Source: Pseudomonadota bacterium
GTDB taxonomy: Bacteria; Pseudomonadota; Gammaproteobacteria; Burkholderiales; Burkholderiaceae_C
DNA: 64,000 nt
Assembly: GCA_018241225.1 (NCBI GenBank)
Contig: JAFEEG010000010.1
Coordinates: 416,052 to 480,051 of the forward strand
Reading direction: 5' to 3'
In this document: one piece after another, positions 40,206-59,810 of the stretch
Layout of the letters: the number at the start of each line of letters is the position of its first letter
Position numbering within the stretch: position 1 is the stretch's first letter
The notes under the pieces: model-generated
The model's database searches: none
What the model was told of the DNA's origin: nothing
The model's input: the letters and a program-made list of their open reading frames with translations, nothing else
Made by a program: the position numbers and the translations under genes

Positions 40206-40248
40206 CGTGCCTTGCGACCGCCGCGGCGCTTGAGCGCACGAACACGCC

Positions 40249-41948: not shown

Positions 41949-42494
41949 TCACTCGTCCTCGTCGTCGTCCGACTCGTCGGTGGGCGAGCCTTCGTGCAGC
42001 TCGATCATGCGGCGCAGCGTGCTTTTCAGCGCCTCGGCGCTTTCCAGGCCAAAGGGTTCCAGCACGCGCATCTCGTGCTCGTGCGCCAGTTCCATCAGGT
42101 GCCCCACGGTGCGCTCGCCCGCCTCGGTGATGCGCACCAGCGTGATGCGGCGATCACTCTCGTGGGGCAGGCGCTCCACGTGGCCGCGCTGGGCCATGCG
42201 GTCGAGCATGCGCGTGACCGTTGGCTGCTTCATCACCGCGATCTGCGCCAGGCGGCCGATGCTGATGGCATCGCCACCCGCCAGCGAAGCCAGCACCCGC
42301 CACTCCGACACCGAGAAGCCGTGCTGGCGCGCCACCTTGTGGAACTCGGACGAGATCAGGTGGCTCGCCTGCGCCAGCAAGGCCGCCAGGTAGTCCTCGA
42401 CAAAGCGTCGCCGGGGCTCCACCGCGCCTGCCGCACTGGGGTTTCGGCGCTGCGTCCTGGTGGGCACGCTGCTTGCATGTCTAGGGTTATTCAT
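41949..42494 (-). CDS. marR: MarR-family transcriptional regulator, probable repressor of the cluster
   Basis: 181 residues. Winged-helix core: SVSEWRVLASLAGGDAISIG, recognition helix KQPTVTRMLDRMAQRGHVERL and the wing ESDRRITLVRITEAGERTV. N-terminal extension of about 30 residues and an acidic C-terminal tail (SPTDESDDDEDE). It is transcribed divergently from the IorA-like gene across a 75-base intergenic region. MarR repressors in iad-type auxin loci are released by indole-3-acetic acid; that this one senses the same ligand is inference from the neighbourhood. Confidence 0.93.
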   Translation of the reverse strand: MNNPRHASSVPTRTQRRNPSAAGAVEPRRRFVEDYLAALLAQASHLISSEFHKVARQHGFSVSEWRVLASLAGGDAISIGRLAQIAVMKQPTVTRMLDRMAQRGHVERLPHESDRRITLVRITEAGERTVGHLMELAHEHEMRVLEPFGLESAEALKSTLRRMIELHEGSPTDESDDDEDE

Positions 42495-42569: not shown

Positions 42570-44750
42570 ATGGCTGAGCGTTCCTTTGTCGAAGAAGTCA
42601 AGAAACTGAAGCTTCCCGAAGGCGAGGTTTTCAGTGGAGAAGGCATTCTGGCGGTGACCAAGGCGCTGCTGGAATCCGGTGTGGCCTACGTCGCCGGCTA
42701 CCAGGGCGCGCCGATCTCGCACCTGATGGATGTGCTGGCCGATGCGCAGGACATCCTGAGCGAGCAGGGCATCCGGTTCGAGAACAGTGCCAGCGAGGCC
42801 ACCGCCGCCGCGACGCTGGCCGCGTCGGTGAACTACCCGTTGCGCGGCGCGGTCACCTTCAAGGCCACCGTGGGCACCAACGTCGCCTCCGACGCGCTGG
42901 CCAACCTGGCCTCGGGCGGCGTCACCGGTGGTGCGCTGATCATCGTGGGCGAGGACTACGGCGAAGGCTCCTCGATCATGCAGGAGCGCAGCCACGCCTT
43001 CGCGATGAAGTCGCAGATCTGGCTGCTGGACCCGCGGCCCAACCTGCCGTCCATCGTCGAGGCGGTCAAGGCCGGCTTCGACTTGTCGGAAGCCAGCAGC
43101 ACGCCGGTGATGCTGCAGCTGCGCATTCGCGCCTGCCACGTGCACGGCCAGTTCGTGGCCGGTGCCAACGTTGCGCCCAAGTTCACGCTCAAGGACGCCC
43201 TGGAGCAGCCGCAGCGCGACGTGAGCCGCATCGTGCTGCCGCCGGCCAGCTTCGTGCACGAGCAGGAAAAGGTGCGCGAGCGCTGGCCTGCCGCGGTGCG
43301 CTTCATCGAGGAGCGCAAGCTCAACGAGTTCTTCGAGGGCGACGCCGGCGACCTGGGCGTGATCGTGCAGGGCGGCAGCTACAACACCCTGATGCGCGCC
43401 CTGGAGCGCCTGGGCCTGGCCGACGTGTACGGCAACACGCAGGTGCCGCTGTACGTGATGAACGTGGCCTACCCGGTCATCGACAGCGAGGTGATCCGCT
43501 TTTGCGAAGGCAAGCGCGCCGTGCTGCTTGTGGAGGAGGGGCAGCCCAACTTCATCGAGCAGAACGTGGCCACCATCCTGCGCCAGTCGGGGGTGGACGC
43601 CGAGCTGCACGGCAAGGACCTGCTGCCCGTGGCCGGCGAGTACACCACTGCCGAACTGCTCAAGGGCGCGCGCGCCTTCTTCCAGCACTACGGCCGCATC
43701 GCGCCCCAGCCCAAGCCCGAGCCGGTGCGCAAGGTCATTCCGCTGGTGGCAGCGCCCGCGGACCTGCCCGCGCCGCCCGAGCCCGACCAGCCCATCGAGG
43801 CCGTGGTGCATGCGCGCCCGCCGGGTTTCTGCACCGGCTGCCCCGAGCGCCCGATCTTCAGCGCGATGAAGCTGGTGGAGCGCGAGCTGGGCCCGCACCA
43901 CGTGAGTGCCGACATCGGCTGCCACCTGTTCTCCATCCTGCCGCCTTTCCACCTGGGCAACACCACCATGGGCTACGGCCTGGGCGCGGCCGGTGCGGCG
44001 GCGCTGAACGTCCCGGCCGGCAAGCGCGCCATCTCGGTGATGGGTGACGGCGGCTTCTGGCACAACGGGCTGACCAGCGGCATTGCCAACGCGGTGTTCA
44101 ACCGCAGCGACAACCTCACCATCGTCGTCGACAACAACTACACCTCGGCCACCGGCGGGCAGGACATCCTCTCGTCCAAGGCGAACAACACGACGCGCAG
44201 CACCGGCCATGCGATCGAGCAGGCGGTGCGCGGCGTGGGCGTGAAGTGGGTCAGGACGCTGCGCCGCACCTACGACGTGGCCGGCATGCGCGACACCCTG
44301 CGCGAGGCGCTGACCACCAAGGAGAAGGGCCCCAAGGTCCTGATCGCGCAGTCCGAATGCATGCTCAACCGCCAGCGCCGCGAAAAGCCGCTGGTGCGCA
44401 AGGCACTGGCGGCCGGCGAGCGCGTGGTGCGCGAGAAGTTCGGCGTGGATTCGGACACCTGCACGGGCGACCACTCCTGCATCCGCCTGTCGGGCTGCCC
44501 GTCGCTGTCGATCAAGCCCAACCCCGACCCGCTGCGCAGCGACCCGGTGGCCACCGTGCTGGACAGCTGCGTGGGCTGCGGCAACTGCGGCGACGTATCG
44601 CACGCGGCGGTGCTGTGCCCCTCGTTCTACAAGGCGCAGGTGGTGAGCAACCCCACCGGCTGGGAGCGCCTGCGCGAACGCATGCGCGCCTCGGTCATCG
44701 GCTGGATGCAGCGCGGCGACGCCAAGCGGCGCGAGAAGTACGCGTTCTGA
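42570..44750 (+). CDS. Indolepyruvate ferredoxin oxidoreductase alpha-like (TPP enzyme)
   Basis: 726 residues. N-terminal pyrimidine-binding domain (GYQGAPISHLMDVLADA), C-terminal TPP domain with GDGGFWHNG at 492-500 and NN at 522-523 (the GDG...NN motif), and an iron-sulfur tail with seven cysteines (C631, C637, C643, C667, C670, C673, C683; CVGCGNCGDVSH then LCPSF). This family oxidatively decarboxylates aryl 2-oxo acids, such as indolepyruvate or phenylglyoxylate, to acyl-CoA. Here isatinate (2-aminophenylglyoxylate), an aryl 2-oxo acid, is my proposed substrate. First gene of the right-hand unit, divergent from marR. Confidence 0.9.
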   Translation: MAERSFVEEVKKLKLPEGEVFSGEGILAVTKALLESGVAYVAGYQGAPISHLMDVLADAQDILSEQGIRFENSASEATAAATLAASVNYPLRGAVTFKATVGTNVASDALANLASGGVTGGALIIVGEDYGEGSSIMQERSHAFAMKSQIWLLDPRPNLPSIVEAVKAGFDLSEASSTPVMLQLRIRACHVHGQFVAGANVAPKFTLKDALEQPQRDVSRIVLPPASFVHEQEKVRERWPAAVRFIEERKLNEFFEGDAGDLGVIVQGGSYNTLMRALERLGLADVYGNTQVPLYVMNVAYPVIDSEVIRFCEGKRAVLLVEEGQPNFIEQNVATILRQSGVDAELHGKDLLPVAGEYTTAELLKGARAFFQHYGRIAPQPKPEPVRKVIPLVAAPADLPAPPEPDQPIEAVVHARPPGFCTGCPERPIFSAMKLVERELGPHHVSADIGCHLFSILPPFHLGNTTMGYGLGAAGAAALNVPAGKRAISVMGDGGFWHNGLTSGIANAVFNRSDNLTIVVDNNYTSATGGQDILSSKANNTTRSTGHAIEQAVRGVGVKWVRTLRRTYDVAGMRDTLREALTTKEKGPKVLIAQSECMLNRQRREKPLVRKALAAGERVVREKFGVDSDTCTGDHSCIRLSGCPSLSIKPNPDPLRSDPVATVLDSCVGCGNCGDVSHAAVLCPSFYKAQVVSNPTGWERLRERMRASVIGWMQRGDAKRREKYAF

Positions 44751-44776
44751 CGCGCCAACAAGAACAAGACCTCACG

Positions 44777-46279
44777 ATGAACGCAGCACAACCCATCAAG
44801 ATCGCGATCCTCGCCATGGGCGGCGAGGGCGGCGGCGTGCTGGCCGACTGGATCGTCGACCTCGGCGAGCACAACGGCTACATCGCCCAGACCACCTCGG
44901 TGCCCGGCGTGGCGCAGCGCACCGGCGCCACCATCTACTACGTCGAGCTGTTTCCGCGCGAGCGGGCCCAGGCCGACGGCGGCCGGCCGGTGCTGGCGTT
45001 GATGCCGCTGCCCGGCGACGTGGACGTGGTGCTGGCCTCCGAGCTCATGGAAGCCGGCCGCGCCGTGCAGCGCGGGCTGGTCACGCCCGAGCGCACAACG
45101 CTGCTGGCTTCCACGCACCGCGTGTATTCCATTGCCGAGAAGTCGGCCATGGGCGACGGCCGGGTGGACAGCACGCAACTGCTTGCCCACGCCAACCGCG
45201 CGGCCAAGCGCTTCGTGCGCTTCGACATGGCCAAGGCGGCAGAGGAAAGCGGCAGCGTGATCAGCGCCGTGCTTTTCGGCGCGCTGGCGGGCACCGGCGT
45301 GCTGCCTTTCAGCCGCGCGCAGTTCGAGGCCACCATCGAGCGCGGCGGCGTGGGCGTCAAGCCCAGCCTGCGCGCCTTCGGCGGTGCCTTCGAGCGGGCC
45401 CAGAAGGAAGGCGAGCCCGCGCAAGAGAGCGCGGCCCTGTCGCAGCGCGAACCCGCGCCCACGCACCCGGCCGTGCGCGCGCTGGTGGAGCGTGTGCGCA
45501 AGGACTTCGCCGCGCCGCTGCAGCCCACGCTGCTAGAAGGCGTGCGCCGTCTCATCGACTACCAGGACACCGACTACGCCGGCACCTATCTGGATCGCGT
45601 GAAGGCCGTGCAGGCGCTGAACGTCGACGACGGCGGCCGCCTGAACGAGGCCGTTGCACGTCACCTCGCGCTGTGGATGTCGTATGAAGACACCGCACGC
45701 GTCGCCTCGCTCAAGACCCGCGCCACCCGCTTCGAGCGCGTGCGCGGCGAATCGGGCGCCAGCGACGACCAGCTGGTCGCCATCAACGAATACATGCACC
45801 CGCGCCTGCAGGAAATCTGCGAGACGCTGCCCGGCGGCCTGGGCCGCTGGCTGATGAACTCGGGCGCGCCGCGCCGCATGGTCGACCGCATGACGCAAAA
45901 GGGCCGCGTGATTCGCACCAGCTCGCTGCGCGGCTACCTCATGCTGCGCTGCGTGGCAGCCGCCAGCCGCTGGCGGCGCAGCACCACCCGCTTTGCGGAA
46001 GAGAACGCGCTCATCGAGCAATGGCTCGCCCGCATCGCGCAAGTGGCCGCGTTCAACCCCGCGCTGGCCCTCGAGGTGGCCCAGTGCCAGCGGCTGGTGA
46101 AGGGCTACAGCGACACGCACGAGCGCGGCAAGCGCAACTACCAGTTGCTGATGGACGCGGCCCAGCGGGCCGGCACCAACCTGGCGCCGGCCACGCTGCG
46201 CGAGTTGCGCGATGCGGCCCTGGCCGACGAACATGGCAAGCAGCTCAAGGCCAAGCTGGCGCAATACGCACTCGGCTGA
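44777..46279 (+). CDS. Indolepyruvate oxidoreductase beta-like protein with DUF6537 domain
   Basis: 500 residues. The N-terminal POR-gamma-like domain (about 1-190) starts IKIAILAMGGEGGGVLADWI and has TTSVPGVAQRTGATIYYVEL. After residue 230 comes a helical DUF6537-type domain (RRLIDYQDTDYAGTYLDRV, ending HGKQLKAKLAQYAL). It pairs with the TPP subunit 26 bases upstream to form the two-chain enzyme. The long fused C-terminal domain is usual in proteobacterial aerobic relatives, not in the short archaeal IorB. Confidence 0.88.
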   Translation: MNAAQPIKIAILAMGGEGGGVLADWIVDLGEHNGYIAQTTSVPGVAQRTGATIYYVELFPRERAQADGGRPVLALMPLPGDVDVVLASELMEAGRAVQRGLVTPERTTLLASTHRVYSIAEKSAMGDGRVDSTQLLAHANRAAKRFVRFDMAKAAEESGSVISAVLFGALAGTGVLPFSRAQFEATIERGGVGVKPSLRAFGGAFERAQKEGEPAQESAALSQREPAPTHPAVRALVERVRKDFAAPLQPTLLEGVRRLIDYQDTDYAGTYLDRVKAVQALNVDDGGRLNEAVARHLALWMSYEDTARVASLKTRATRFERVRGESGASDDQLVAINEYMHPRLQEICETLPGGLGRWLMNSGAPRRMVDRMTQKGRVIRTSSLRGYLMLRCVAAASRWRRSTTRFAEENALIEQWLARIAQVAAFNPALALEVAQCQRLVKGYSDTHERGKRNYQLLMDAAQRAGTNLAPATLRELRDAALADEHGKQLKAKLAQYALG

Positions 46280-46293
46280 AGGAGACACAAGGG

Positions 46294-47286
46294 ATGACGC
46301 ATCCGGCACCCACCACCCTGACCCTGCGCGTCGTCGAGGCGCGCAGCCTCAACCCGCTCATCCGCATGCTGCGCCTGGCCGCGGCCGACGGCGCGCCGCT
46401 GCCGGCCTACAGCGCCGGCGCACACATCCGCGTGCAGGTCACGGCCAACGGCCAGAAGGACTGGCGCCACTACTCGCTCATCAACACCTCGCCGCGCATG
46501 GACGCGACGGTCGCGCCCACCGAGTACCTGATCTCGGTGCGCCGCGAAGACGCGGGCCGCGGTGGTTCGCGCTTCATGCATGAAGGCCTGCAGGCGGGTG
46601 ACAGCCTGCTCATCGAAGCGCCCAAGAACGACTTTCCGGTGCACGAAGGTGCGCCGCGTGCGGTGCTCATCGCAGGCGGTATCGGCGTCACGCCGCTGGT
46701 GAGCATGGCCGCGCGCCGCAAGGCCGAGGGCGCCCCGGTGCGCATGCACTACGCCGGTCGCAGTCGCGACCTGATGGCCTACCTGCCCGAGTTGCAGGCA
46801 CTGCTGGGCGACGACCTCGTGGTGCATGCCGACACCGAGGCAGGCGCTCCGCTGGACATCGCCAAGCTGCTGGACGGCTGCGAAGCGAGCGACCAGCTCT
46901 ACGTCTGCGGCCCCAAGGTGATGCTGGACGCCGTGCTGGCCGCCACCCAGGCGCGTGGCTGGACGCATGACCGCGTGCACTTCGAGCTGTTCACCGAGCC
47001 GGTGGTGGAAGCGGGCGACCATGCCTTCGAGGTGGTGCTGGCCCAGTCGGGCAAGACCTTCACGGTGCCGGCCGACCAGACCATTCTCGATTGCCTCATC
47101 GAACACGGCTGCGACCCGATGTTCGACTGCAAACGCGGCGAATGCGGCGTGTGCACCACGCCGGTGATGGAAGGCGAGATCGACCACCGCGACTACGTGC
47201 TCACGAACCGCGAGAAGGCGCAGGGCAACGTCATGCAGATCTGCATTTCGCGCGCCAAGGGCGCCAGGCTGGTGCTCGACATCTGA
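46294..47286 (+). CDS. Phthalate-dioxygenase-type oxidoreductase (FMN/[2Fe-2S])
   Basis: 330 residues. FMN/FAD domain with RHYSLINTSP-type motif (WRHYSLINTS), NAD domain LIAGGIGVTPLVSM and YVCGPKVMLDAV, then a C-terminal plant-type ferredoxin domain: C-x4-C-x2-C in DCKRGECGVCTT and a distal Cys in MQICISRA. This is the class IA reductase layout, so no separate ferredoxin is needed. It supplies electrons from NADH to the Rieske dioxygenase encoded next, and possibly also to the second pair at 59837. It corresponds in position to the reductase of iad-type loci. Confidence 0.92.
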   Translation: MTHPAPTTLTLRVVEARSLNPLIRMLRLAAADGAPLPAYSAGAHIRVQVTANGQKDWRHYSLINTSPRMDATVAPTEYLISVRREDAGRGGSRFMHEGLQAGDSLLIEAPKNDFPVHEGAPRAVLIAGGIGVTPLVSMAARRKAEGAPVRMHYAGRSRDLMAYLPELQALLGDDLVVHADTEAGAPLDIAKLLDGCEASDQLYVCGPKVMLDAVLAATQARGWTHDRVHFELFTEPVVEAGDHAFEVVLAQSGKTFTVPADQTILDCLIEHGCDPMFDCKRGECGVCTTPVMEGEIDHRDYVLTNREKAQGNVMQICISRAKGARLVLDI

Positions 47287-47321
47287 GCGCCGAAAAGCAA
47301 GAAAAGGAAGGAGACCCACCA

Positions 47322-48635
47322 ATGACAAGCTACAGAGGCAACCCCGAGGCCGTGCGCGCCCTGGTGCAGCCCGACCGCGTGCACCGCGACCTCTACATCA
47401 GCCAGGAGCTGTTCGAGCTGGAGCAGGAGCACTTCTTCGCCAACACCTGGAACTACGTGGGCCACGAGAGCCAGTTGCCCAAGAACGGCGACTACATCCA
47501 GGCCGACATCGCCGGGCGTCCGCTGATCGTTGTGCGCCACAGCGACGGCACAGTGCGCGCCATGATGAACCGCTGCGCGCACAAGGGCTCGCGCCTGGTG
47601 AGCGCGGCCTGCGGCAACACCGGCAAGTTCTTCCGCTGCCCGTATCACGCGTGGACCTTCAAGACCGACGGGTCGCTCTTGGCCATTCCGCTGAAGAACG
47701 GCTACGAGGAAACCAACCTGCACGAGTGCGAATCGGCCAAGGGCCTGACGGTGGTGAAGAACGTGCGCAGCTACCGCGGCTTCATCTTCGTGAAGATCAA
47801 CGACGCGGGGCCGGACTTCGAGGAGTACTTCGGCGACTCGCTCAGCTCCATCGACAACATGGCCGACCGCTCGCCCGAGGGCGAACTGGAAATTGCCGGC
47901 GGGTGCCTGCGCTTCATGCACCAGTGCAACTGGAAGATGTTCGTGGAGAACCTCAACGACACCATGCACCCCATGGTGGCGCACGAATCGTCGGCCGGCA
48001 CGGCCAAGACCATGTGGGCCGACAAGCCGGCCGATGCACCCAAGCCGATGGCCATCGAGCAGTTCGTGCCCTTCATGTCGGACTACAAGTTCTTCGACGA
48101 CATGGGCATCCGCACCTACGACAACGGCCACAGCTTCACCGGCGTCAACTTCAGCATCCACAGCAAGTACTCCGCCATTCCGGAGTACGACAACGCCATG
48201 AAGGCGCGCTACGGCGAAGAAAAGACCGCGCAGATCCTGGGCATGGCGCGGCACAACACGGTGTACTACCCCAACCTGACCATCAAGGGCGCCATCCAGG
48301 CCATCCGCGTGGTCAGGCCGATCTCGGCCGACAAGACGCTGATCGAAAGCTGGACCTTCCGCCTCAAGGGCGCGCCGCCCGAGCTGCTGCAGCGCACCGC
48401 CATGTACAACCGGCTCATCAACTCGCCGTTCTCGGTGGTGGGGCATGACGACCTGCAGGCCTACCGCGGCATGCAGGCCGGCCTGCACGCCAGCGGCAAC
48501 GAGTGGGTCAGCCTGCACCGCAACTACGACCCGGCCGAGTTGAAGGGTGGCGAGCAGACCACGGGCGGCACCAACGAGCTGCCCATGCGCAACCAATACC
48601 GCGCCTGGGCGCAGCGCATGACGGAGACCATGTAA
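47322..48635 (+). CDS. iadD: Rieske ring-hydroxylating dioxygenase alpha subunit (IadD-like)
   Basis: 437 residues. Rieske cluster ligands C85-x-H87 (CAHKGS) and C106-x2-H109 (CPYH); mononuclear iron site with bridging D213 and ligands H216 and H221 in ENLNDTMHPMVAHE. It hydroxylates an aromatic ring with O2 and electrons from the reductase upstream. Because it lies in an iad-like neighbourhood (MarR, IorAB-like pair, isatin-hydrolase-like cyclase), I infer attack on the indole ring of indole-3-acetate. The symbol is given by context; which of the two Rieske pairs is the true iadDE needs experiment. It overlaps the beta subunit by one base. Confidence 0.82.
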   Translation: MTSYRGNPEAVRALVQPDRVHRDLYISQELFELEQEHFFANTWNYVGHESQLPKNGDYIQADIAGRPLIVVRHSDGTVRAMMNRCAHKGSRLVSAACGNTGKFFRCPYHAWTFKTDGSLLAIPLKNGYEETNLHECESAKGLTVVKNVRSYRGFIFVKINDAGPDFEEYFGDSLSSIDNMADRSPEGELEIAGGCLRFMHQCNWKMFVENLNDTMHPMVAHESSAGTAKTMWADKPADAPKPMAIEQFVPFMSDYKFFDDMGIRTYDNGHSFTGVNFSIHSKYSAIPEYDNAMKARYGEEKTAQILGMARHNTVYYPNLTIKGAIQAIRVVRPISADKTLIESWTFRLKGAPPELLQRTAMYNRLINSPFSVVGHDDLQAYRGMQAGLHASGNEWVSLHRNYDPAELKGGEQTTGGTNELPMRNQYRAWAQRMTETM

Positions 48636-49123
48636 TGGCCACCACCACAATCACCCGCCAGGACCTGATCGATTTCGTGGTGCGCGAATCGCGATTGCTC
48701 GACGGCAAGCAGTACGAAGAGTGGAACACGCTCTTCACCGACGACGCCTTCTACTGGATACCGGCCGCACCGGACCAGGAAGATGGCCTGAACCACTGCT
48801 CGCACATGTACGAGGACAAGCTGCTGCGCGAGCTGCGCATCGAGCGCCTGAAGAGCCCGCGTGCCTTCTCGCAGCAGCCACCCAGCCGCTGCCACCACCT
48901 GCTGCAGGTGCCTGCGGTCGAGCGCTTCGACGAAGCCGCCAACGAGTACCTGGTGCGCACGGAGTTCCACTACACCGAGTCGCAGGGCGACGAGCTGCAG
49001 TTCTACGTGGGCACCTTCTTCCACCACCTCAGGCAGGTGGACGGCGCTCTGCGCATGACGCTCAAGCGCGTGAACCTGCTGAACTGCGACGCGGCCCTGC
49101 CGGCGGTGCAGCTGTTCATCTGA
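48635..49123 (+). CDS. iadE: Ring-hydroxylating dioxygenase beta subunit (IadE-like)
   Basis: 162 residues of the NTF2-like fold: FVVRESRLLDGKQYEEWNTLFTDDAFYWIP near the N-terminus, QQPPSRCHHLLQVPAVERF in the middle and the conserved end LNCDAALPAVQLFI. It is structural, forming the alpha3beta3 hexamer with the alpha chain. Its ATG overlaps the alpha stop by one base. It is clearly paralogous to the beta subunit at 61153. Confidence 0.88.
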   Translation: MATTTITRQDLIDFVVRESRLLDGKQYEEWNTLFTDDAFYWIPAAPDQEDGLNHCSHMYEDKLLRELRIERLKSPRAFSQQPPSRCHHLLQVPAVERFDEAANEYLVRTEFHYTESQGDELQFYVGTFFHHLRQVDGALRMTLKRVNLLNCDAALPAVQLFI

Positions 49124-49136
49124 GGCGGCGGCACAT

Positions 49137-50759
49137 ATGAACGCAACCGTTCACCAGGTCTTTGCCGCCACCGCGGCCCGCACGCCGCAGGCCGAGTTCC
49201 TGTTTACCGAGTCGGTCACCGCCAAGGCCTACGGCATTGCCTCTGGCGTGCTGCACTGGGGCGAGGCTGCTGCCGAGGTGCAGCGCCTTCGCCAGGCCTA
49301 TGCGCAGGCCGGCTGGGGCCACGGCCACCGCGTCGGCCTGCTGCTGGAAAACCGCCCGGCCTTCCTGCTGCACTGGCTGGCGCTCAACGCCCTGGGCGTG
49401 AGCGTGGTGCCCATCAATGCAGAGATGCGCTCGGCCGAGCTCATCTATCTCATCGGCCACAGCGAGATCGGCCTGGCCGTGACCTTGCCCGAGCGCGCCG
49501 CCGACCTGCTTGCCGCGGCCGAACAGGCCGGCGTGCCCTTCGCCACCATGGGCGCGGACGATGCGGTGCCGCAAGCCCCTACGGCTGCACCGCGTGCGGC
49601 CGAGCCCATCGGCACGCAGACGGAATGCGCGCTGCTCTACACCTCGGGCACCACCGGCCGCCCCAAGGGCTGCATCCTTGGCAACGACTACTTCCTGCGC
49701 GCCGGCCAGTGGTATGCCGCACTGGACGGCGTGTGCAGCATCCGCCCCGACACCGAGCGCGTCATCACGCCGCTGCCGCTGAACCACATGAACGCGATGG
49801 CGTTCTCCACCATGGTGGTGCTGACGGCCGGGGGCTGCCTGGTGCAGCTGGACCGCTTCCATCCCAGGAGCTGGTTGGCCAGCGCGCGCGAAAGCCGCGC
49901 CACCATCGTCCACTACCTGGGCGTGATGCCGGCCATGCTGCTGTCGGCCGCGCCTTCTTCGGCAGACAGCGACCATGCCATCCGCTGGGGCTTCGGCGCC
50001 GGCGTGGACAAGAAGAACCACGCGCCGTTCGAAGAGCGCTTCGGCTTCCCGCTGGTCGAGGCCTGGGCCATGACCGAGACGGGCGCGGGAGGCTGCATCA
50101 TGGCCAACCGCGAACCGCGCCTGGTGGGCAGCAGCTGCTTCGGCCGCCAACCCGACTTCATGGACATGAGGCTGGTCGATGAGGAAGGCAAGGAGGTCGG
50201 TGTCGATGCGCCCGGCGAGTTGCTGGTGCGCACCCGTGGCGACGACCCGCGCAAGCACTTCTTCTCCGGCTACCTCAAGGACGAAGCAGCGACGAAGCAA
50301 GCCTGGGCCGACGGCTGGTTCCACACGGGCGACCTGGTACGCCGCGACGCACAGGGCAACCTCTTCTTCGTCGATCGCAAGAAGAACGTGATCCGCCGCA
50401 GCGGCGAGAACATCTCGGCCGTGGAAGTGGAAAGCGTGCTCAACCAGCACCCGGCCGTGAAGACCTCCGCCGTGGCCGCCACGCCCGACGAGGTGCGCGG
50501 CGACGAGGTGCTGGCCTGCATCGTGCTGCGCGAGGAGGTGAGCAACGACAACCCCGCGCAGTTGGCCGCCAGCATCGTCGACCATGCGCTGGCCCAACTG
50601 GCCTACTACAAGGCCCCAGGCTACGTCGCCTTCGTCGATGCGCTGCCGCTGACGCCTTCGCAGAAGATCCAGCGCGGCCAGTTGCGAGACCTGGCGCGCG
50701 AGTTGCCGGGGCAGGGCGGCTGCGTCGACACGCGGGCCATGAAGAAGAGGCAAGCATGA
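49137..50759 (+). CDS. AMP-forming acyl-CoA synthetase
   Basis: 540 residues. AMP-binding P-loop-like motif LLYTSGTTGRPKGC near residue 165, AWAMTETG (A5-type motif), GWFHTGDLV and DRKKNVIRRSGENISAVEVE, and the adenylation Lys in LPLTPSQKIQRGQLR near the C-terminus. It makes a CoA ester from an acid; here I propose the ring-oxidised indole-3-acetate derivative. It follows iadE by 13 bases and overlaps the thiolase-like gene by four bases (ATGA). Confidence 0.9.
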   Translation: MNATVHQVFAATAARTPQAEFLFTESVTAKAYGIASGVLHWGEAAAEVQRLRQAYAQAGWGHGHRVGLLLENRPAFLLHWLALNALGVSVVPINAEMRSAELIYLIGHSEIGLAVTLPERAADLLAAAEQAGVPFATMGADDAVPQAPTAAPRAAEPIGTQTECALLYTSGTTGRPKGCILGNDYFLRAGQWYAALDGVCSIRPDTERVITPLPLNHMNAMAFSTMVVLTAGGCLVQLDRFHPRSWLASARESRATIVHYLGVMPAMLLSAAPSSADSDHAIRWGFGAGVDKKNHAPFEERFGFPLVEAWAMTETGAGGCIMANREPRLVGSSCFGRQPDFMDMRLVDEEGKEVGVDAPGELLVRTRGDDPRKHFFSGYLKDEAATKQAWADGWFHTGDLVRRDAQGNLFFVDRKKNVIRRSGENISAVEVESVLNQHPAVKTSAVAATPDEVRGDEVLACIVLREEVSNDNPAQLAASIVDHALAQLAYYKAPGYVAFVDALPLTPSQKIQRGQLRDLARELPGQGGCVDTRAMKKRQA

Positions 50760-51928
50760 GCCGCAAACGCATGTCCTATGAAGGCGTGGCCGTCGCGGTG
50801 CCGGTGACGGTGCCGTACGTGCGCTACTCCACCCACACCGCGCACTGGTTCATCGGCGCTGCCGTCGCGGCGCTGGTCAAGCAAAGCGGCATTCCCAAGG
50901 AAGAAATCGACGGCCTGTGCCTGTCGAGCTTCTCGCTGGTGCCCGACACCGCCGTGGGCGTGACCCAGCACCTGGGCCTGTCGCCGCGCTGGCTGGACCA
51001 CGTGCCCACCGGCGGCGCGTCCGGCGTGATGTGCCTGCGCCGCGCGGCCCGCGCCGTTCAAGCCGGCGATGCGGACGTGGTGGCCTGCGTGGCGGCCGAT
51101 ACCAACCATGTCGACTCCTTCCGCCAGACCCTGGGCGCGTTCAGCAACTTCTCGCGCGACGCCACCTACCCCTACGGCTCGGGCGGCCCCAATTCCATCT
51201 TCGCCTTCATCACCGCCAACTACATGCGCACCTACGGCGCACGGCGCGACGACTTCGGCCGTATCGCGGTGGACCAGCGCACCAACGCGCTGGCCAACCC
51301 CAACGCGCTGTTCAAGAAGGGCCTGACGCTGGACGAGTACATGGCCGCGCGGCCCATCTCCGACCCCATCCACCTGTTCGACTGCGTCATGCCCTGTGCG
51401 GGCGCCGAGGCTTTCCTGGTGATGAGCGAGGAAAAGGCGCGCGAGCTGGGCCTGCCGCATGTGGTGATCCGCGGCGCCATCGAGCGCCACAACGCCTTCG
51501 CCGACGACCCGGTGATGGTGCAGGGCGGCTGGCGTATGGACCGTGGCGACCTGTATGCGCAGGCCGGCATCCAGCCCAGCCAGGTCGACTTCATCCAGAC
51601 CTATGACGACTACCCGGTGATCGTGATGATGCAGTTCGAGGACCTGGGCTTTTGCGAAAAGGGCGAAGGCCCCGAGTTCGTGCGCTCGCACGACATGACC
51701 TACGCCGGCAGCTTTCCCAACAACACCAGCGGCGGGCAACTGTCGGTGGGGCAGGCCGGGGCGGCCGGCGGCTTCCTGGGCATGACCGAGGCCATTCGCC
51801 AGCTCACCGACCAGGCCGGCAAGCGTGCCGTGAAGGATGCGCAACTGGGCATGGTGTGCGGCTTCGGCATGGTCACCTACGACCGCTGCCTTTGCACCGG
51901 CGCCGTCATCCTGGGGAGGAACCAATGA
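50756..51928 (+). CDS. Thiolase-like (Ltp/SCP2-type) protein without catalytic Cys and His, probable retro-aldolase
   Basis: 390 residues of the thiolase fold. The nucleophile loop, normally with C-x-S-G, reads VPTGGASGVMCL, so Gly87 replaces Cys; the C-terminal G-H-P loop reads LSVGQAGAAGG, so Gln333 replaces His. Tyr283 and Tyr286 lie in QTYDDYPVIVM. Loss of Cys with a DUF35 partner next door is the pattern of Ltp2-ChsH2 steroid side-chain aldolases, which use tyrosines to split a tertiary beta-hydroxyacyl-CoA. I infer retro-aldol release of acetyl-CoA from a dioxindole-3-acetyl-CoA. A benzylsuccinate BbsB-like role is the alternative. Confidence 0.85.
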   Translation: MSRKRMSYEGVAVAVPVTVPYVRYSTHTAHWFIGAAVAALVKQSGIPKEEIDGLCLSSFSLVPDTAVGVTQHLGLSPRWLDHVPTGGASGVMCLRRAARAVQAGDADVVACVAADTNHVDSFRQTLGAFSNFSRDATYPYGSGGPNSIFAFITANYMRTYGARRDDFGRIAVDQRTNALANPNALFKKGLTLDEYMAARPISDPIHLFDCVMPCAGAEAFLVMSEEKARELGLPHVVIRGAIERHNAFADDPVMVQGGWRMDRGDLYAQAGIQPSQVDFIQTYDDYPVIVMMQFEDLGFCEKGEGPEFVRSHDMTYAGSFPNNTSGGQLSVGQAGAAGGFLGMTEAIRQLTDQAGKRAVKDAQLGMVCGFGMVTYDRCLCTGAVILGRNQ

Positions 51929-52016
51929 CCCCCACGTTTGCCACTTCGTGTGCTGCACTGCCCCCCGAGGGGGCCAAGCGCCTGCCTTGGGGCGGCCCGG
52001 CGGAGGCGCTATGACC
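51925..52016. repeat. REP-like hairpin element flanked by 6-bp direct repeats
   Basis: About 80 bases (51931-52010) lie between the two copies of ATGACC at 51925-51930 and 52011-52016. The element holds two perfect hairpins: GCCCCC/GGGGGC at 51960-51974 with loop CGA, and AGCGCCT (51977-51983)/AGGCGCT (52004-52010). This sort of GC-rich element ending in GGGGCGGCCCGGCGG is dispersed through Comamonadaceae genomes, from memory. It separates two genes that otherwise would be coupled by an ATGA overlap. Confidence 0.7.
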
Positions 52017-53270
52017 ATGCCTCTGATGCGCCCCAAGCGCAAGAACCCCGTCCTGCGCACGCGGCAGATGAACCTGCCGCCCTGGCAGCGCGGCCGCGTT
52101 GCGCTGGGCATTACCGCTGCCGCCGCCGAAGGCCGCTTCGAGCTGCAGGTGTGCGAAGACTGCGGCACGGTGCAGTACCCGCCGCGCGAAGCGTGCAAGA
52201 AGTGCCTCTCGGCAGCGCTGCGCTGGCGCCAGCAGTCCGGCGAGGGCCAGCTCATTTCGAGCACCACGCTGCACCACAGCAACGACCTCTTCTTCCGCGA
52301 ACGCCTGCCCTGGCGCCTGGGCCTGGTGCACCTGGATGCCGGCCCCACGCTGGTGGTGCACCTGCACGGCGAGGTCGAGGACTCGAAAGAGGCGCCCACC
52401 CGTGTGCGCGTAGGCGCCCGGCTCGACCGCGCCGGACAAGCGGTACTCATTGGATTTCCGAACGAAGGGAGCCCCCACATGGCCGACGACAAGATGCTGC
52501 GCGAAATGACCAGCGACCCCAAGTTCCGCAAGGTGCTCGTCACCGACGGCAAGACCCCCGTGGGCCAGGAGGTGGTGCGCGCCCTGGTCAAGGCCGGCGC
52601 CGACATCGTCTGGGTCGGCCATGCCGAACCCTGGAAGAAGCTGGGCGGGCTGGACGACATCAGCGCGCTGCCGCAGGTGACGCTGGTGCCGCTGGACTTG
52701 ACCAACGGCCGCCAGGTGAGCGAGCTGGCCGGTGAGATCGGCGGCAAGATCGACATCGTGATCAACACCGCCGAGGTGCACCGCACCTTCGGCATCGGCG
52801 GCCGCCGCGGCACCGATGTGGCCAAGGCGGAGATGGACATCAACTACTTCGGCCTGCTGCGACTGGCGCAGGAGTTCGGCCCCGCGCTCAAGGGCCGATC
52901 GGCCGACGGGCAGAGCTCGGCCACGGCATGGGTGAACCTGCTGTCGGTGTATGCGCTGTCCAACTTCCCGCCGCATGGCACTTTCAGCGCATCGAAGGCC
53001 GCCGCCTATTCGCTGGCCCAGTGCCTGCGCGCCGAGATGCGGCCGGCCGGCATCCGCGTGATCAACGTGTTCCCCGGCCCCATCGACGACGAATGGAACC
53101 AGCACGTACCGCCGCCCAAGCTCGCGCCCTCGGCGCTGGCCAATGCGATCGTGAAGGCGCTGCGCGACGGCGTGGAAGACGTCTATCCCGGCGACGTGGC
53201 ACAGGAATGGCTCGAGCGCTGGCGCGACAACCCCAAGGTGCTCGAACGCGAACTCGCTGCAGGCGGCTGA
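52011..53270 (+). CDS. DUF35 (OB-fold/zinc ribbon) protein fused to a degenerate SDR domain
   Basis: 419 residues. Residues 1-150: DUF35, with zinc ribbon C48/C51 (VCEDCG) and C62/C65 (CKKC) and an OB-fold ending AVLIGF. Residues 173-419: short-chain dehydrogenase fold, but the cofactor loop reads TDGKTPVGQ instead of TGxxxGxG (D179, P183) and the catalytic Tyr is Phe325 in GTFSASKAAA, with Ser312 and Lys329 kept. DUF35 partners stabilise and gate thiolase-like aldolases such as Ltp2. The SDR part may be structural. The start directly follows the hairpin element; 52017 is another ATG. Confidence 0.88.
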   Translation: MTMPLMRPKRKNPVLRTRQMNLPPWQRGRVALGITAAAAEGRFELQVCEDCGTVQYPPREACKKCLSAALRWRQQSGEGQLISSTTLHHSNDLFFRERLPWRLGLVHLDAGPTLVVHLHGEVEDSKEAPTRVRVGARLDRAGQAVLIGFPNEGSPHMADDKMLREMTSDPKFRKVLVTDGKTPVGQEVVRALVKAGADIVWVGHAEPWKKLGGLDDISALPQVTLVPLDLTNGRQVSELAGEIGGKIDIVINTAEVHRTFGIGGRRGTDVAKAEMDINYFGLLRLAQEFGPALKGRSADGQSSATAWVNLLSVYALSNFPPHGTFSASKAAAYSLAQCLRAEMRPAGIRVINVFPGPIDDEWNQHVPPPKLAPSALANAIVKALRDGVEDVYPGDVAQEWLERWRDNPKVLERELAAGG

Positions 53271-53284
53271 ACCAAGGAGCAAAG

Positions 53285-54094
53285 ATGACGACCGAGACCC
53301 TGACAAAAGCCGCCGGCGCACTGGGCGCCCTGGTAAGCGCCCTGGCCAGCAACCGCATCCGCGTGGTCGACCTCACGCAGACGCTCACGCCCGAGTTCCC
53401 GCAGATCGCGCTGCCGCCCGAGATGGGCCAGTGCTGGCCCTTCCGCATCGAGGAAGTGTCGAAGTACGACGAGCGCGGCCCGGGCTGGTACTGGAACAAT
53501 TTCTCGTGCGGCGAGCACACCGGCACGCACTTCGACGCGCCCATCCACTGGATCTCCGGGCGCGACCTGCCCAACAACTCGGTGGACACCATTCCCGTGC
53601 AGCACTTCGTGGCGCCCGCTTGCGTCATCGACTGCTCGGAGCAGGTGAAGAAAGACCCCGACTACCTGCTCACGGTGGAAGACATCGAGCGCTTCGAGGC
53701 TGCCCACGGCCGCATCCCCACCGGCGCCTGGGTGCTGATGCGCACCGACTGGTCCAAGCGGCAAGACCCGGAGGCCTACCAGAACTTCGACGAGACCGGC
53801 CAGCACACGCCGGGCCCGAGCACCGAGGCGGTGCGCTTCATGGTGGAGCAGCGCGACGTGCTGGGCTTCGGCTCCGAGGCCATCGGCACCGATGCCGGCC
53901 AGGGCTACCACCTGCGCCCGCCGTACCCCTGCCACTACTTCATGCACGGCGCGGGCCGCTACGGCCTGCAGTGCCTGAGCAACCTCGACCAGCTGCCGCC
54001 CACCGGCAGCGTGCTCATCTGCCCGCCGCTGAAGATCCAGAAGGGCAGCGGCAGCCCGCTGCGCGTGCTGGCATTGGTGGAGGACGCACGATGA
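53285..54094 (+). CDS. Cyclase-family metal hydrolase, isatin-hydrolase-like
   Basis: 269 residues. The metal motif H78-x3-H82-x-D84-x3-H88 in HTGTHFDAPIHW is that of the cyclase/kynurenine formamidase family (PF04199), which includes Mn-dependent isatin hydrolase. It hydrolyses a cyclic or N-acyl amide; in an auxin pathway the natural step is ring opening of isatin to isatinate. Formamidase activity on an N-formyl compound is the alternative. It lies 14 bases after the DUF35-SDR gene and overlaps the SDR gene by four bases. Confidence 0.86.
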   Translation: MTTETLTKAAGALGALVSALASNRIRVVDLTQTLTPEFPQIALPPEMGQCWPFRIEEVSKYDERGPGWYWNNFSCGEHTGTHFDAPIHWISGRDLPNNSVDTIPVQHFVAPACVIDCSEQVKKDPDYLLTVEDIERFEAAHGRIPTGAWVLMRTDWSKRQDPEAYQNFDETGQHTPGPSTEAVRFMVEQRDVLGFGSEAIGTDAGQGYHLRPPYPCHYFMHGAGRYGLQCLSNLDQLPPTGSVLICPPLKIQKGSGSPLRVLALVEDAR

Positions 54095-54822
54095 GCAGCG
54101 CCCCTCTTGTTGCGGCGGTGACCGGTGGCAGCGCCGGCATCGGCAAGGCCATCTGCGAAGACCTGCTGGCCAAGGGCTACGAGGTGATCTCGCTGGCGCG
54201 GCGCGCCGCCGACATCGCGCACCCCAAGATGCACAGCATCGAGGTCGACCTGATGGACCGCGCCGCCACCGCGCAGGCCGCCAAGGAGATGACCGAGCGC
54301 TTCGAGGTCAACACGCTGGTGCACAACGCCGGCGTCATTCGCGCGGCGCTGCTGCCCGAGGTGAAGCTGGACGACCTCGACGCACTGGTCGACCTGCACC
54401 TGGGCTGCGCCATCACGCTCGCGCAAGCGGCACTGCCCACCATGCGCGCGCAGCGCTTCGGCCGCATCGTGCTGCTTTCTTCCCGCGCGGCGGTGGGCCT
54501 GCAGACCCGCACCAGCTACTCGGCCACCAAGGCCGGCATGCTGGGCATGGCCCGCACCTGGGCGCTGGAGCTGGCGCCCGAGGGCATCACCGTGAACGTG
54601 GTGGCTCCCGGCCCCATTCGCACCGACATGTTCTACGACGTGGTGCAACAAGGAAGTGACAAGGAGCGCGCGCTGGCCGCATCGGTTCCCGTCAAGCGCC
54701 TGGGCGAATCGGCCGACGTGGCGCGGGCGGTGTCCTTCTTTGCCGAGCCGGCCAACGGCTTCGTGACCGGGCAGGTGCTGTACGTGTGCGGCGGCACCAG
54801 CGTCGGCAGCCTTGCGCTCTGA
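54091..54822 (+). CDS. Short-chain dehydrogenase/reductase
   Basis: 243 residues with an intact SDR fold: TGGSAGIGKAI cofactor loop, VHNAGVI, catalytic Ser in LLSSRAAVG and Tyr-Lys in TSYSATKAGML, and the usual NVVAPGPIRTDMF. NAD(P)-dependent alcohol/ketone conversion; the substrate might be a hydroxylated indole such as dioxindole or a dihydrodiol. It ends the transcription unit begun at 42570; 145 bases follow before the binding-protein gene. Confidence 0.9.
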   Translation: MSSAPLVAAVTGGSAGIGKAICEDLLAKGYEVISLARRAADIAHPKMHSIEVDLMDRAATAQAAKEMTERFEVNTLVHNAGVIRAALLPEVKLDDLDALVDLHLGCAITLAQAALPTMRAQRFGRIVLLSSRAAVGLQTRTSYSATKAGMLGMARTWALELAPEGITVNVVAPGPIRTDMFYDVVQQGSDKERALAASVPVKRLGESADVARAVSFFAEPANGFVTGQVLYVCGGTSVGSLAL

Positions 54823-54967: not shown

Positions 54968-56125
54968 ATGCAAGTTTCCATGCGTCTTTGCCTTCGTACC
55001 GGCCTGGCCCTGGGCCTGGGCGCCGTTGCAGTTGCCCAAGCCTTCGCGGCCGACCTCAAGGTCGGCTTCATCACCTCGCTGTCGGGGCCGGTGTCCTCGC
55101 TGGGCATTCCCTACGACAAGGGCATCAAGGCCGGCGCGGCCTACAAGTCCGAGGTGGCCGGCCACAAGATCACCATGATCTCGCTGGACGATGCGTCAGA
55201 CCCCAGCACGGCCGCGCGCAACGCCCGCAAGCTGATCGAGGAAGACAAGGTCGACGTGATCATCGGCACGGCCGGCTCGCCCGGTGCGCTGGCCATTGCC
55301 GCCGTGGCGCGCGAGACCAAGACGCCGCTGATCTCCATTGCCAACGCCAACCTGCCGGGCGAGGAGGGCGCGTGGATGGTCACGCTGCCGCAGCCCGCGC
55401 CGCTGATGGTCAGCGCCGTGGTCGAGAAGATGAAGGCCTCGGGCGTGAAGTCGGTGGGCTACATCGGCTTCTCAGACGCCTGGGGCGACCTGGTGTACGA
55501 CGCGCTGCAAAAGAGCGCGGGCCCCGCCGGCATCAAGGTGATCGGCAACGAGCGCTATGCGCGCGCCGACAGCTCGGTGGCCGGCCAGGTGCTCAAGATC
55601 GTGGCGCAAAAGCCCGACGCGGTGATCACCGGCACCTCGGGCACGCCCGGCGCCTTGCCCTACCTGGCACTGGCCGAGCGCGGCTACAAGGGCCAGATCT
55701 ACGGCACGCACGCGCTCATCAACCCCGACTTCGTGCGGGTGGGTGGTGCGTCGGTGGAAGGGCTGCTGGCACCCACCGGCCCGGTGATCGTGGCCGAGCA
55801 GCTGCCCGAATCCAACCCCATGCGCAAGGTGGCGATGGACTTCCGCGCGGCCTACCAGAAGGCCAACGGCGCGGCGCCCACCGATGCGTTCTCGGCCTAC
55901 TCCTTCGACGGCTGGCTGGTCATGCTCGATGCCGCATCCCGTACCAAGGGCGAGCCCGGCACGCCGGCCTACCGCGTTGCCCTGCGCGACGCCATCGTCT
56001 CCACCAAGGAGCTGGTGGGCACGCACAGCGTCTACAACTTCAAGCCCACCGATCGCTACGGCTCGGACGAGCGCTCGCGCGTGATCGTGAAGCTGGAAAA
56101 GGGCCAGTGGAAGCTGGTGCCCTGA
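54968..56125 (+). CDS. Liv-type ABC transporter substrate-binding protein (copy 1)
   Basis: 385 residues. Signal peptide RTGLALGLGAVAVAQAFAA, then a type I periplasmic binding fold: LKVGFITSLSGPVSSLGIPY, LDDASDPSTAARNARKLIEEDKVDVIIG, GFSDAWGDLVYDAL and SFDGWLVMLDAA. Family members bind branched-chain amino acids, amides or aromatic acids; here probably indole-3-acetate or a related aromatic. It is paralogous to the proteins at 58653 and 61709. It starts a new unit after a 145-base gap that carries the shared operator-like motif. Confidence 0.92.
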   Translation: MQVSMRLCLRTGLALGLGAVAVAQAFAADLKVGFITSLSGPVSSLGIPYDKGIKAGAAYKSEVAGHKITMISLDDASDPSTAARNARKLIEEDKVDVIIGTAGSPGALAIAAVARETKTPLISIANANLPGEEGAWMVTLPQPAPLMVSAVVEKMKASGVKSVGYIGFSDAWGDLVYDALQKSAGPAGIKVIGNERYARADSSVAGQVLKIVAQKPDAVITGTSGTPGALPYLALAERGYKGQIYGTHALINPDFVRVGGASVEGLLAPTGPVIVAEQLPESNPMRKVAMDFRAAYQKANGAAPTDAFSAYSFDGWLVMLDAASRTKGEPGTPAYRVALRDAIVSTKELVGTHSVYNFKPTDRYGSDERSRVIVKLEKGQWKLVP

Positions 56126-56138
56126 GCACGCATTGCCG

Positions 56139-58652: not shown

Positions 58653-59810
58653 GTGAAGCATCTCTTCCCGCGCCTGGCGATTGCTGCTGCAGCAGCCTTC
58701 ATGGCCACCGGCGCCCTGGCGGCCGACACCATCAAGATCGGCTTCATCAGCTCGCTCTCCGGCCCGGTGGCCGCGCTGGGCGTGCCGTACGAGAAGGGCA
58801 TCCGAGCCGCCATTGCGCAGCAGCCCACCGTGGCCGGCCACAAGGTCGAGCTGATCGTGCTGGACGATGCGTCCGACCCGACCACCGCCGGGCGCAATGC
58901 GCGCAAGCTGGTGGTGGACGACAAGGTGGACCTGCTCATCGGCACCTCGGGCGTGCCCGGCGCCATGGCCATCGCGGCCGTGGCCAAGGAGACCGGCACG
59001 CCGCTGATCTCGCCCACGCCGGTGGTCATTGCCGGCGGGGCCGACACCTGGACCGTGACCGTGTCGCAGCCCTTCGGCCTGATGGTGTCTGCCGTGGTCG
59101 ACCGCATGAAGAAGGCCGGCGTGAAGACCGTGGCCTTCATCGGCTTTTCCGACGCGCTGGGCGACCTGGCCTACGACTCGCTGGTCAAGGCGGCAGGCCC
59201 GGCCGGCATCAAGATCGTGGCCAACGAGCGCTATGCGCGATCCGACTCGTCGGTGGCCGGGCAGGTGCTCAAGATCGTGGCGCAAAAGCCCGACGCGGTG
59301 TTTGCCGGCAACTCCGGCACGCCCGGTGCGCTGCCCTACCTGGGGCTGGCCGAGCGCGGCTACAAGGGCCAGATCTACGGCACGCACGGCCTCATCAACG
59401 CCGACTTCGTGCGCGTGGGCGGCGCGGCCATCGAAGGCCTGCAGGTGCCCAGCGGCCCGGTGCTGGTGGCCGACCAGTTGCCCGACAGCAACCCGATCAA
59501 GAAGGTGTCGATGGACTTCCGCGCCAGCTACCAGAAGGTCAACGGCGCCGTTCCCACCGACGCCTTCTCGTCCTACACCTACGACGCCTACCTGCTGCTG
59601 GCCGACGCGGCCAAGCGCGTGCCCAAGGCCGCGGGCGAGCCCGGCACGGCGGCCTACAAGACCGCGCTGCGCGACGCCATCATGTCGACCAAGGAGCTGG
59701 TGGGCACGCACGGCGTCTACAACTTCAAGGCCGACGACCGCTACGGCTCGGACCAGCGCGCCGTGGTGATCGTGCGCATGGAAAAGGGCCAGTGGAAGCT
59801 GGCGCCCTGA
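58653..59810 (+). CDS. Liv-type ABC transporter substrate-binding protein (copy 2)
   Basis: 385 residues from a GTG start, beginning with signal peptide LAIAAAAAFMATGALAAD. Same fold as copy 1: IKIGFISSLSGPVAALGVPY, LDDASDPTTAGRNARKLVVDDKVDLLIG and GFSDALGDLAYDSL. The ligand loop differs from copy 1 (SPTPVVIAGGADTWTVT versus SIANANLPGEEGAWMVT), so the ligands probably differ. Placed between the acylase and the second dioxygenase, it may bring that enzyme's substrate. Confidence 0.92.
   Translation: MKHLFPRLAIAAAAAFMATGALAADTIKIGFISSLSGPVAALGVPYEKGIRAAIAQQPTVAGHKVELIVLDDASDPTTAGRNARKLVVDDKVDLLIGTSGVPGAMAIAAVAKETGTPLISPTPVVIAGGADTWTVTVSQPFGLMVSAVVDRMKKAGVKTVAFIGFSDALGDLAYDSLVKAAGPAGIKIVANERYARSDSSVAGQVLKIVAQKPDAVFAGNSGTPGALPYLGLAERGYKGQIYGTHGLINADFVRVGGAAIEGLQVPSGPVLVADQLPDSNPIKKVSMDFRASYQKVNGAVPTDAFSSYTYDAYLLLADAAKRVPKAAGEPGTAAYKTALRDAIMSTKELVGTHGVYNFKADDRYGSDQRAVVIVRMEKGQWKLAP

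Follow-up and report, generated by a model that had tools for sequence, protein, structure and literature searches.

A Variovorax-type iad locus for auxin degradation in a Burkholderiales genome, with a predicted DUF35 retro-aldolase in IadG and IadH

Gene content and identity of the locus

The window analysed here is a 64,000 nucleotide stretch of contig JAFEEG010000010.1 from a Pseudomonadota bacterium of the order Burkholderiales (assembly GCA_018241225.1), and it carries an iad gene cluster for degradation of the auxin indole-3-acetate (IAA). Gene calling together with Pfam and NCBIfam scans identified a MarR gene diverging from a tightly packed run of IorAB-like genes, a reductase, a Rieske pair, an AMP-forming ligase, a thiolase-like protein, an isatin-hydrolase-like cyclase and a short-chain dehydrogenase/reductase (SDR) (Table 1). 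All of these gene types had been named in an earlier note made from the DNA alone. That note also placed a separate DUF35 gene and a single SDR in the unit and ended it at 54822. The DUF35 protein is present, but it is not a separate gene, as zf-ChsH2, OB_ChsH2_C and an SDR domain are encoded in one open frame. Two SDR domains were found, namely the C-terminal half of IadH and IadJ, and the gene run continues beyond 54822 to the window end with three solute-binding proteins, a penicillin amidase, a second Rieske pair and a permease. The MarR gene and iadA are separated by 75 bp, and no inverted repeat of 7 or more bases was found in this gap.

The iad assignment was decided on iadD. IadD is identical in 396 of 437 residues to 9o71, the Variovorax IadDE (PMC12633357, a 2025 preprint), and on account of this identity the route to anthranilate is already known in outline. 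The Rieske pair is of the IAA type with the IadC reductase gene directly upstream, and the iadF-J gene set and an IadR-type MarR gene are also present. Comparison with characterised proteins, a check of the kind proposed in the earlier note, gave strong matches for IadD, the MarR protein, the first solute-binding protein and the cyclase (9o71, 7kfo, 7ylt and 5nna). We take 7yls to be IadDE, and 7kfo and 7ylt to be MarR_73 (IadR) and IadK2. The locus is a Variovorax-type iad locus, and its turnover of IAA to anthranilate is predicted from the genes. The "iad-like auxin degradation unit" of the earlier note holds as regards auxin degradation and is refined to a true iad locus of a type already described (PMC9613470, PMC12633357); the new part is the assignment of side-chain cleavage to IadG and IadH.

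The same gene types, MarR, iadA-J and an IadK2-like gene, make up the iad locus of Variovorax paradoxus CL14 (PMC9613470, PMC10374108, PMC12633357). When compared by protein and gene type, and not by locus DNA, its core showed no detected difference from the window, and the iadC-to-iadK2 order agrees with the published order so far as that is described (PMC10374108, PMC12633357). Comparable gene sets were seen in many of the 110 loci examined, which argues that the arrangement in the window is not due to chance. The IadH query (E <=1e-40) had matches in 89 of 100 genomes from the genus, presumably Variovorax, and in 12 of 399 from the order; for the IadG query (E <=1e-60) the figures were 10 of 398 in the phylum and 6 of 369 in the class. 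All four counts include the genome of the window, and four IadG-positive genomes (G683, G766, G1064, G1201) hold distant homologues only, of 37-44% identity.

Table 1. Features of the iad locus and of the genes downstream of it, in window coordinates.
Feature	Coordinates	Strand	Evidence
iadR-like MarR regulator gene	41949..42494	-	phmmer match 7kfo E 2.6e-67; Pfam MarR
IadA-like TPP 2-oxoacid:ferredoxin oxidoreductase alpha	42570..44750	+	TIGR03336 E 1.2e-85; TPP_enzyme_C
IadB-like oxidoreductase beta with DUF6537	44777..46279	+	NF006179 733.6 bits, cut-off 348
IadC reductase, FAD/NAD and 2Fe-2S	46294..47286	+	Pfam Fer2, NAD_binding_1, FAD_binding_6
IadD Rieske oxygenase alpha	47322..48635	+	9o71 E 3.1e-283; 7yls E 1.9e-282
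IadE Rieske oxygenase beta	48635..49123	+	Ring_hydroxyl_B E 6e-24
IadF AMP-forming acyl-CoA ligase	49137..50759	+	AMP-binding E 1.6e-49
IadG thiolase-fold predicted retro-aldolase subunit, motif YDDY	50756..51928	+	9myr_A (CtSal) best sequence and fold match
IadH ChsH2-type DUF35 fused to degenerate SDR	52011..53270	+	zf-ChsH2 E 4.7e-13; OB_ChsH2_C E 4.6e-13; adh_short E 3.5e-21
IadI isatin hydrolase	53285..54094	+	5nna (isatin hydrolase A) E 7.9e-113; GLQC and EHTGTHFDAPIHW motifs
IadJ intact SDR dehydrogenase	54082..54822	+	NF005753 E 1.9e-67; TGGSAGIG, YSATK intact
IadK2-like ABC solute-binding protein	54980..56125	+	7ylt E 1.1e-207
Penicillin-amidase gene, between two solute-binding genes	56133-58622		
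Second solute-binding protein	58701..59810	+	Peripla_BP_6
Second Rieske alpha (D2)	59837..61156	+	Pfam; clade apart from IadD
Second Rieske beta (E2)	61153..61659	+	Ring_hydroxyl_B
Third solute-binding protein	61709..62872	+	Peripla_BP_6
ABC transporter permease	62914..63969	+	BPD_transp_2

IadG and IadH compared with thiolase-fold aldolases

IadG was compared over 121 aligned rows, which include the distant homologues L068-L072. The 80 named loci are the best 80 of 574, collected from alignment A1 (first sequence from L057) by two peptide patterns. One of these contains GGQLS[VA]GQA and thereby partly builds in the constancy of Gln323 and Gln328 given below; neither pattern covers YDDY, Gly82 or any IadH residue. 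The IadH rows were chosen on their BLAST score against the DUF35 half; of 122 loci (L009-L020, L048-L157), 117 contributed one row each, and the window was added. Among the five loci with no such row, none was found in L069, L070 and L071, and the records of L118 and L140 end. The row sets overlap in a few genomes, and distinct counts are used where these were made.

The best PDB sequence match of IadG was 9myr_A, CtSal (E 1.8e-51), followed by Ltp2 (6ok1_A, 5.2e-42) and BbsB (7pxp_C, 1.4e-29), and 9myr_A was also the top Foldseek match of the predicted IadG model (31 sequences, pLDDT 87.8; E 1.2e-36, TM 0.88). CtSal catalyses through Tyr302 and Cys304 of its YDCY motif, aided by Gln347 and Gln352, with Gly89 near the substrate hydroxyl (PMC12329534). 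The equivalents in IadG, numbered from the start at 50771, are Tyr278-Asp-Asp280-Tyr (YDDY), Gln323 and Gln328. Position 278 is Tyr, and Tyr-Asp is kept, in 121/121 rows, while Asp occupies position 280 in 120 rows and Cys in the remaining one; the four-letter motif reads YDDY in 117 rows, YDDF in 3 and YDCY in 1. The thiolase Cys and the GHP His of 7pxp_C and 7yvy_A align to Gly82 and Gln328, both of them invariant over the 121 rows. The thiolase-like protein lacking Cys and His that the earlier note described was thus recovered, and IadG has neither of the two residues that mark a beta-ketothiolase. IadG as a thiolase was rejected, the thiolase Cys column being Gly throughout.

Like the Sal/Ltp2-type aldolases, IadG has the thiolase fold with the nucleophilic Cys lost, and a DUF35 partner with a zinc finger is encoded beside its gene. 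The D-[C/H] which follows the catalytic Tyr in that type is not found; since the third motif residue is Asp instead of Cys or His, IadG is considered a variant and not a plain Sal or Ltp2 member. With the CtSal-CtShy bile-acid aldolase (9MYR) the IadGH pair shares the thiolase fold, the DUF35 partner gene, the catalytic Tyr and two adjacent Gln, but it has Asp at Cys304, its DUF35 is fused to an SDR where that of CtShy is fused to a MaoC hydratase, and its predicted substrate is an oxindole instead of a steroid (PMC12329534). The Ltp2-ChsH2 aldolase (6OK1) has the same fold, a DUF35 partner and the Tyr of the YDxx motif; IadG differs from it by Asp for His296, and no Tyr stands at the Tyr344 position in the alignment. 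The benzoylsuccinyl-CoA thiolase BbsAB (7pxp) shares the fold and is likewise paired with a DUF35 protein (PMC12329534), but it is a weaker match to IadG than CtSal and carries the Cys and His that are replaced by Gly82 and Gln328 in IadG. The distant IadG homologues of L069, L070 and L071 (36-40% identity) carry YDDF with no DUF35 match in the stretch and belong to a wider YDD family.

IadH is composed of zf-ChsH2 (36-70), OB_ChsH2_C (72-138) and adh_short (174-365), and its model has a pLDDT of 87.8. The DUF35 gene adjoins iadG on the same strand in 78 of the 80 named loci, the other two (L118, L140) being records that end just after iadG, and the four zinc cysteines are kept in 118/118 rows. 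The SDR half follows a different pattern. TGxxxGxG is present in none of 104 distinct fusions, in which the first Gly is Asp in 99, Asn in 4 and Ala in 1, whereas IadJ of the same loci, taken as control, keeps the three Gly, Tyr and Lys in 74/74 distinct rows. In the window the catalytic triad positions of IadH are Ser, Phe and Lys, and in every one of the 17 same-genus rows (15 genomes) Phe replaces the catalytic Tyr and Asp the first Gly. The window's IadH shows neither the TGxxxGxG nor the Ser-Tyr-Lys of an SDR alcohol dehydrogenase.

IadH consists of DUF35 only in 9 of the 118 rows. Seven of these lie beside D, E, F, G and J (L066, L084, L085, L097, L105, L108, L123), including Alcaligenes faecalis (L084), Paenalcaligenes hominis (L105) and Schauerella (L108), and IadI lies within the stretch in five of the seven (not L066, L108). 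BLAST with the iad proteins found IadJ as the only nearby SDR in 5/7 and one extra weak match (~29-30% identity) in L066 and L105, a search which an unlike SDR could escape. These seven loci represent a natural experiment on the SDR domain. The IadG tree requires five changes between fused and DUF35-only IadH and a single clade was rejected (p-AU 5e-5), but with the very long branches of L072 and L068 this gives weak support for repeated SDR loss.

Predicted route from indole-3-acetate to anthranilate

A tertiary alcohol at the beta carbon is not oxidisable to a ketone. Dioxindole-3-acetyl-CoA is a tertiary beta-alcohol, so there would be no beta-keto thioester for a thiolase to cut, and a retro-aldol split would give isatin and acetyl-CoA directly; we infer that this chemistry applies to IadGH. 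In V. paradoxus, iadCDE initiates IAA breakdown, the Rieske enzyme itself yields C10H9NO3, and IadJ is required to reach C10H9NO4 (PMC12633357), a formula read here as dioxindole-3-acetate. The Rieske step on IAA put forward in the earlier note stands, with the change that the second SDR is needed after it. Deletion of iadF, G, H or I significantly reduces anthranilate, and the preprint assigns IadF as CoA synthase, IadG as ketothiolase and IadH as alcohol dehydrogenase, the carbon-carbon cleavage step being assigned from annotation only (PMC12633357).

We consider the following scheme quite probable. IadCDE would oxidise IAA, with IadJ needed on the way to dioxindole-3-acetate, which IadF would convert to dioxindole-3-acetyl-CoA. 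IadG and the DUF35 half of IadH, with the degenerate SDR attached, would then act as a Sal/Ltp2-type retro-aldolase, in which Tyr278 would remove the proton from the C3 hydroxyl and Asp280 would protonate the enolate of acetyl-CoA, so that isatin and acetyl-CoA would be released without any change of redox state. IadI would open isatin to isatinate. IadAB would probably decarboxylate isatinate oxidatively to anthranilate or anthraniloyl-CoA, and this is the weakest step.

Gly at the thiolase Cys, CtSal as best match, the kept zinc cysteines, and an SDR motif that is lost and a domain that is absent in some loci make a redox-free split by IadGH the most likely reading. The retro-aldol split by the thiolase-like/DUF35 pair proposed in the earlier note is a predicted activity which these IadG and IadH features support, and it appears to match the sequences better than the published annotation. 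The metabolite formulas C8H7NO3 and C7H7NO given in the preprint (PMC12633357) correspond to isatin plus H2O and to C8H7NO3 minus CO2. If dioxindole were the IadI substrate, addition of H2O would yield C8H9NO3; the C8H7NO3 seen thus agrees with isatin. By term counts, no paper pairing DUF35 or retro-aldol with auxin degradation was found in the literature covered, which mostly excludes subscription journals.

Opening of isatin by the cyclase, as the earlier note had it, is supported by the match of IadI to isatin hydrolase A and by its motifs. The manganese-site motif EHTGTHFDAPxHW is present in 108/111 IadI rows, the other three differing by one residue, and the GLQC signature likewise in 108/111; the window has both, which is the combination of Mn-site motif and GLQC/GLAS signature expected of an isatin hydrolase. 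At motif level the two are shared with isatin hydrolase A of Ralstonia solanacearum / Labrenzia (5nna, 5nnb, 5nmp; PMC6117287).

Several observations weigh against parts of this scheme, the first of them at IadAB. The iadC-K2 region alone restored anthranilate (PMC12633357), so IadAB is not strictly required. IadA scores 288 bits against TIGR03336, below the cut-off of 650.9, which makes it a relative of the IOR_alpha family, and IadA-like proteins at E <=1e-200 are present in 45/399 genomes of the order, 11 of them iadH-positive. IadAB might on these grounds be a housekeeping indolepyruvate or other 2-oxoacid oxidoreductase, with isatinate decarboxylated by something else or without an enzyme, an explanation which we find doubtful but the strongest of the alternatives. 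Full-length IadA copies of at least 63% identity, however, occur in 11/12 iadH-positive and 6/387 iadH-negative genomes of the order (Fisher p 1.6e-16, with the cut picked after inspection of the table and kinship ignored by the test). The 11/12 combine ten genomes from one search with G450 from another, and the twelfth genome, G279, has 59%. The survey overlooked the G450 copy and may have overlooked others, the partial matches in G148, G303 and G398 were not counted, and "iadH-negative" means no match at E 1e-40, below which a DUF35-only IadH could fall. An IadA homologue (E <=1e-60) was found in 18/18 tested genomes whose locus has none within the flank, on the iadG contig within ~30 kb in 6 of the 8 with genome data, and the window genome has a second copy, 60% identical, on another contig. 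C8H7NO3 and C7H7NO accumulate only in strains overexpressing iadC-K2 (PMC12633357), which from the gene range of the deletion are taken to lack iadAB. The IadA homologue appears to track the iad pathway across genomes, and oxidative decarboxylation by IadAB, the role which the earlier note proposed for the TPP enzyme on isatinate, is preferred on indirect support.

For the further fate of anthranilate, no match over the cut-off of anthranilate 1,2-dioxygenase TIGR03228 was found in the genome (best 182 vs 671.9 bits), in which no search for the AndAc family was made. Contig C10 of the same genome has a strong match to PRK08255 (1435 bits against a cut-off of 1078; L163:9661-14610), and genes for an enoyl-CoA hydratase and an acyl-CoA dehydrogenase lie next to it. 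This salicylyl-CoA hydroxylase/oxidoreductase-type cluster hints at a possible anthraniloyl-CoA outlet and may serve salicylyl-CoA instead.

The other contrary points concern IadG and IadH. IadG lacks the Cys or His of the proven aldolases. Among the 104 fusions, the SDR half of IadH retains the catalytic Tyr in 20, Ser in 100, the third Gly in 98, and Ser, Tyr and Lys together in 6. Its mean pairwise identity is 0.57 against 0.59 for DUF35 (600 sampled pairs), and with conservation so near to that of DUF35 the SDR half must do something; we describe it as degenerate and dispensable without implying that it is useless. In 5u4s, the nearest solved SDR, Leu aligns with the Tyr, and yet this protein was crystallised with NADP; iadH is among the genes needed for anthranilate, a result which cannot separate DUF35 from SDR function (PMC12633357). 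Dioxindole is also present in cultures (PMC9613470), and the SDR half could be an active isatin/dioxindole reductase of unusual type, coupled to the retro-aldolase and detoxifying isatin. We judge this unlikely in view of the Phe in all same-genus rows and of the seven iad-like loci (Alcaligenes, Paenalcaligenes and others) in which the domain is absent, with IadJ the sole nearby SDR in five. Isatin reduction as the main job of the SDR half was rejected on the Gly motif, the Tyr and the domain loss. From its residues the SDR half would be conserved but degenerate, dispensable across species, and not the working alcohol dehydrogenase annotated.

Deletion of iadI accumulates C8H7NO2, the formula of dioxindole and not of isatin, which fits a reduction step (PMC12633357); reading it as a side reduction of isatin is a reinterpretation, and this is the main point where the published data can be read the other way. 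The preprint pathway, in which ketothiolase IadG and alcohol dehydrogenase IadH remove the side chain reductively to dioxindole and IadI acts on dioxindole, draws on this build-up and on the SDR domain that IadH does hold, but it is very improbable with no thiolase Cys in IadG, no Gly motif in any fusion, DUF35-only IadH in otherwise similar loci, a tertiary alcohol that cannot give the required beta-keto thioester, and a hydration product of dioxindole which differs from the formula observed.

Front-end variants, neighbouring genes and significance

The D2-type Rieske clade (11 rows) is separate from IadD. In six rows from five distinct loci D2 is the sole Rieske enzyme and lies beside F, G, H and I, without IadC or IadJ matches. 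2-oxindole-3-acetate (oxIAA) is the plant's own auxin breakdown product, and the second Rieske pair may hydroxylate it directly to dioxindole-3-acetate. The non-D2 loci L049, L052 and L129 are likewise without IadC and IadJ, as are the short records L135, L137 and L151 at the same thresholds, so that feeding from oxIAA is only a lead. For the front end of Rieske-free loci, no oxygenase was found among ten proteins sampled from three loci; they belong to transport, racemase-family, hydrolase, PEP-mutase and chemotaxis families, with one lacking a match. In two loci with no Rieske match, iadG has a gene of the Asp/Glu/hydantoin-racemase family as its neighbour (L059:9480-10223, L142:6156-6947).

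Penicillin-amidase homologues (E <=1e-100) are present in 9 of 61 same-genus genomes, the window genome included. In G048 the gene follows iadH at a distance of ~3 kb, on the same strand and thus arranged as in the window, but no copy was found in L074-L077, which are loci of the same genus. The enzyme might free IAA from its amide conjugates. The stretch that ends shortly ahead of the MarR gene (38123-41930) contains octopine-dehydrogenase-like, 3-hydroxyacyl-CoA dehydrogenase, alpha/beta hydrolase and zinc-type oxidoreductase genes.

A wider proposal, towards which we lean slightly less than away, is that IadG-IadH represents a third catalytic type of thiolase-fold retro-aldolase (Tyr-Asp as against Tyr-Cys and Tyr-Tyr), whose substrate is a tertiary beta-hydroxyacyl-CoA of N-heterocyclic type and whose DUF35 clamp is joined to a dead SDR. 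With the ligase and isatin hydrolase it would form a portable module fed with dioxindole-3-acetate by different front-end oxygenases, and the second Rieske pair may feed it from 2-oxindole-3-acetate without IadJ.

Through the iad pathway, root bacteria can undo the stunting of roots that auxin causes, and root-associated strains are being engineered to carry it (PMC12633357). The main new result is that IadG and IadH are reassigned, in a way open to test, to a probable Tyr-Asp variant of the DUF35 retro-aldolases that carries a decayed SDR. The supposed dehydrogenase domain of IadH is neither canonical nor universal, and the reassignment would tell which part of IadH an engineered cassette needs. 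It would also shift the on-pathway metabolite from dioxindole to isatin, and would widen the range of the DUF35 aldolases beyond steroids to include a plant hormone.

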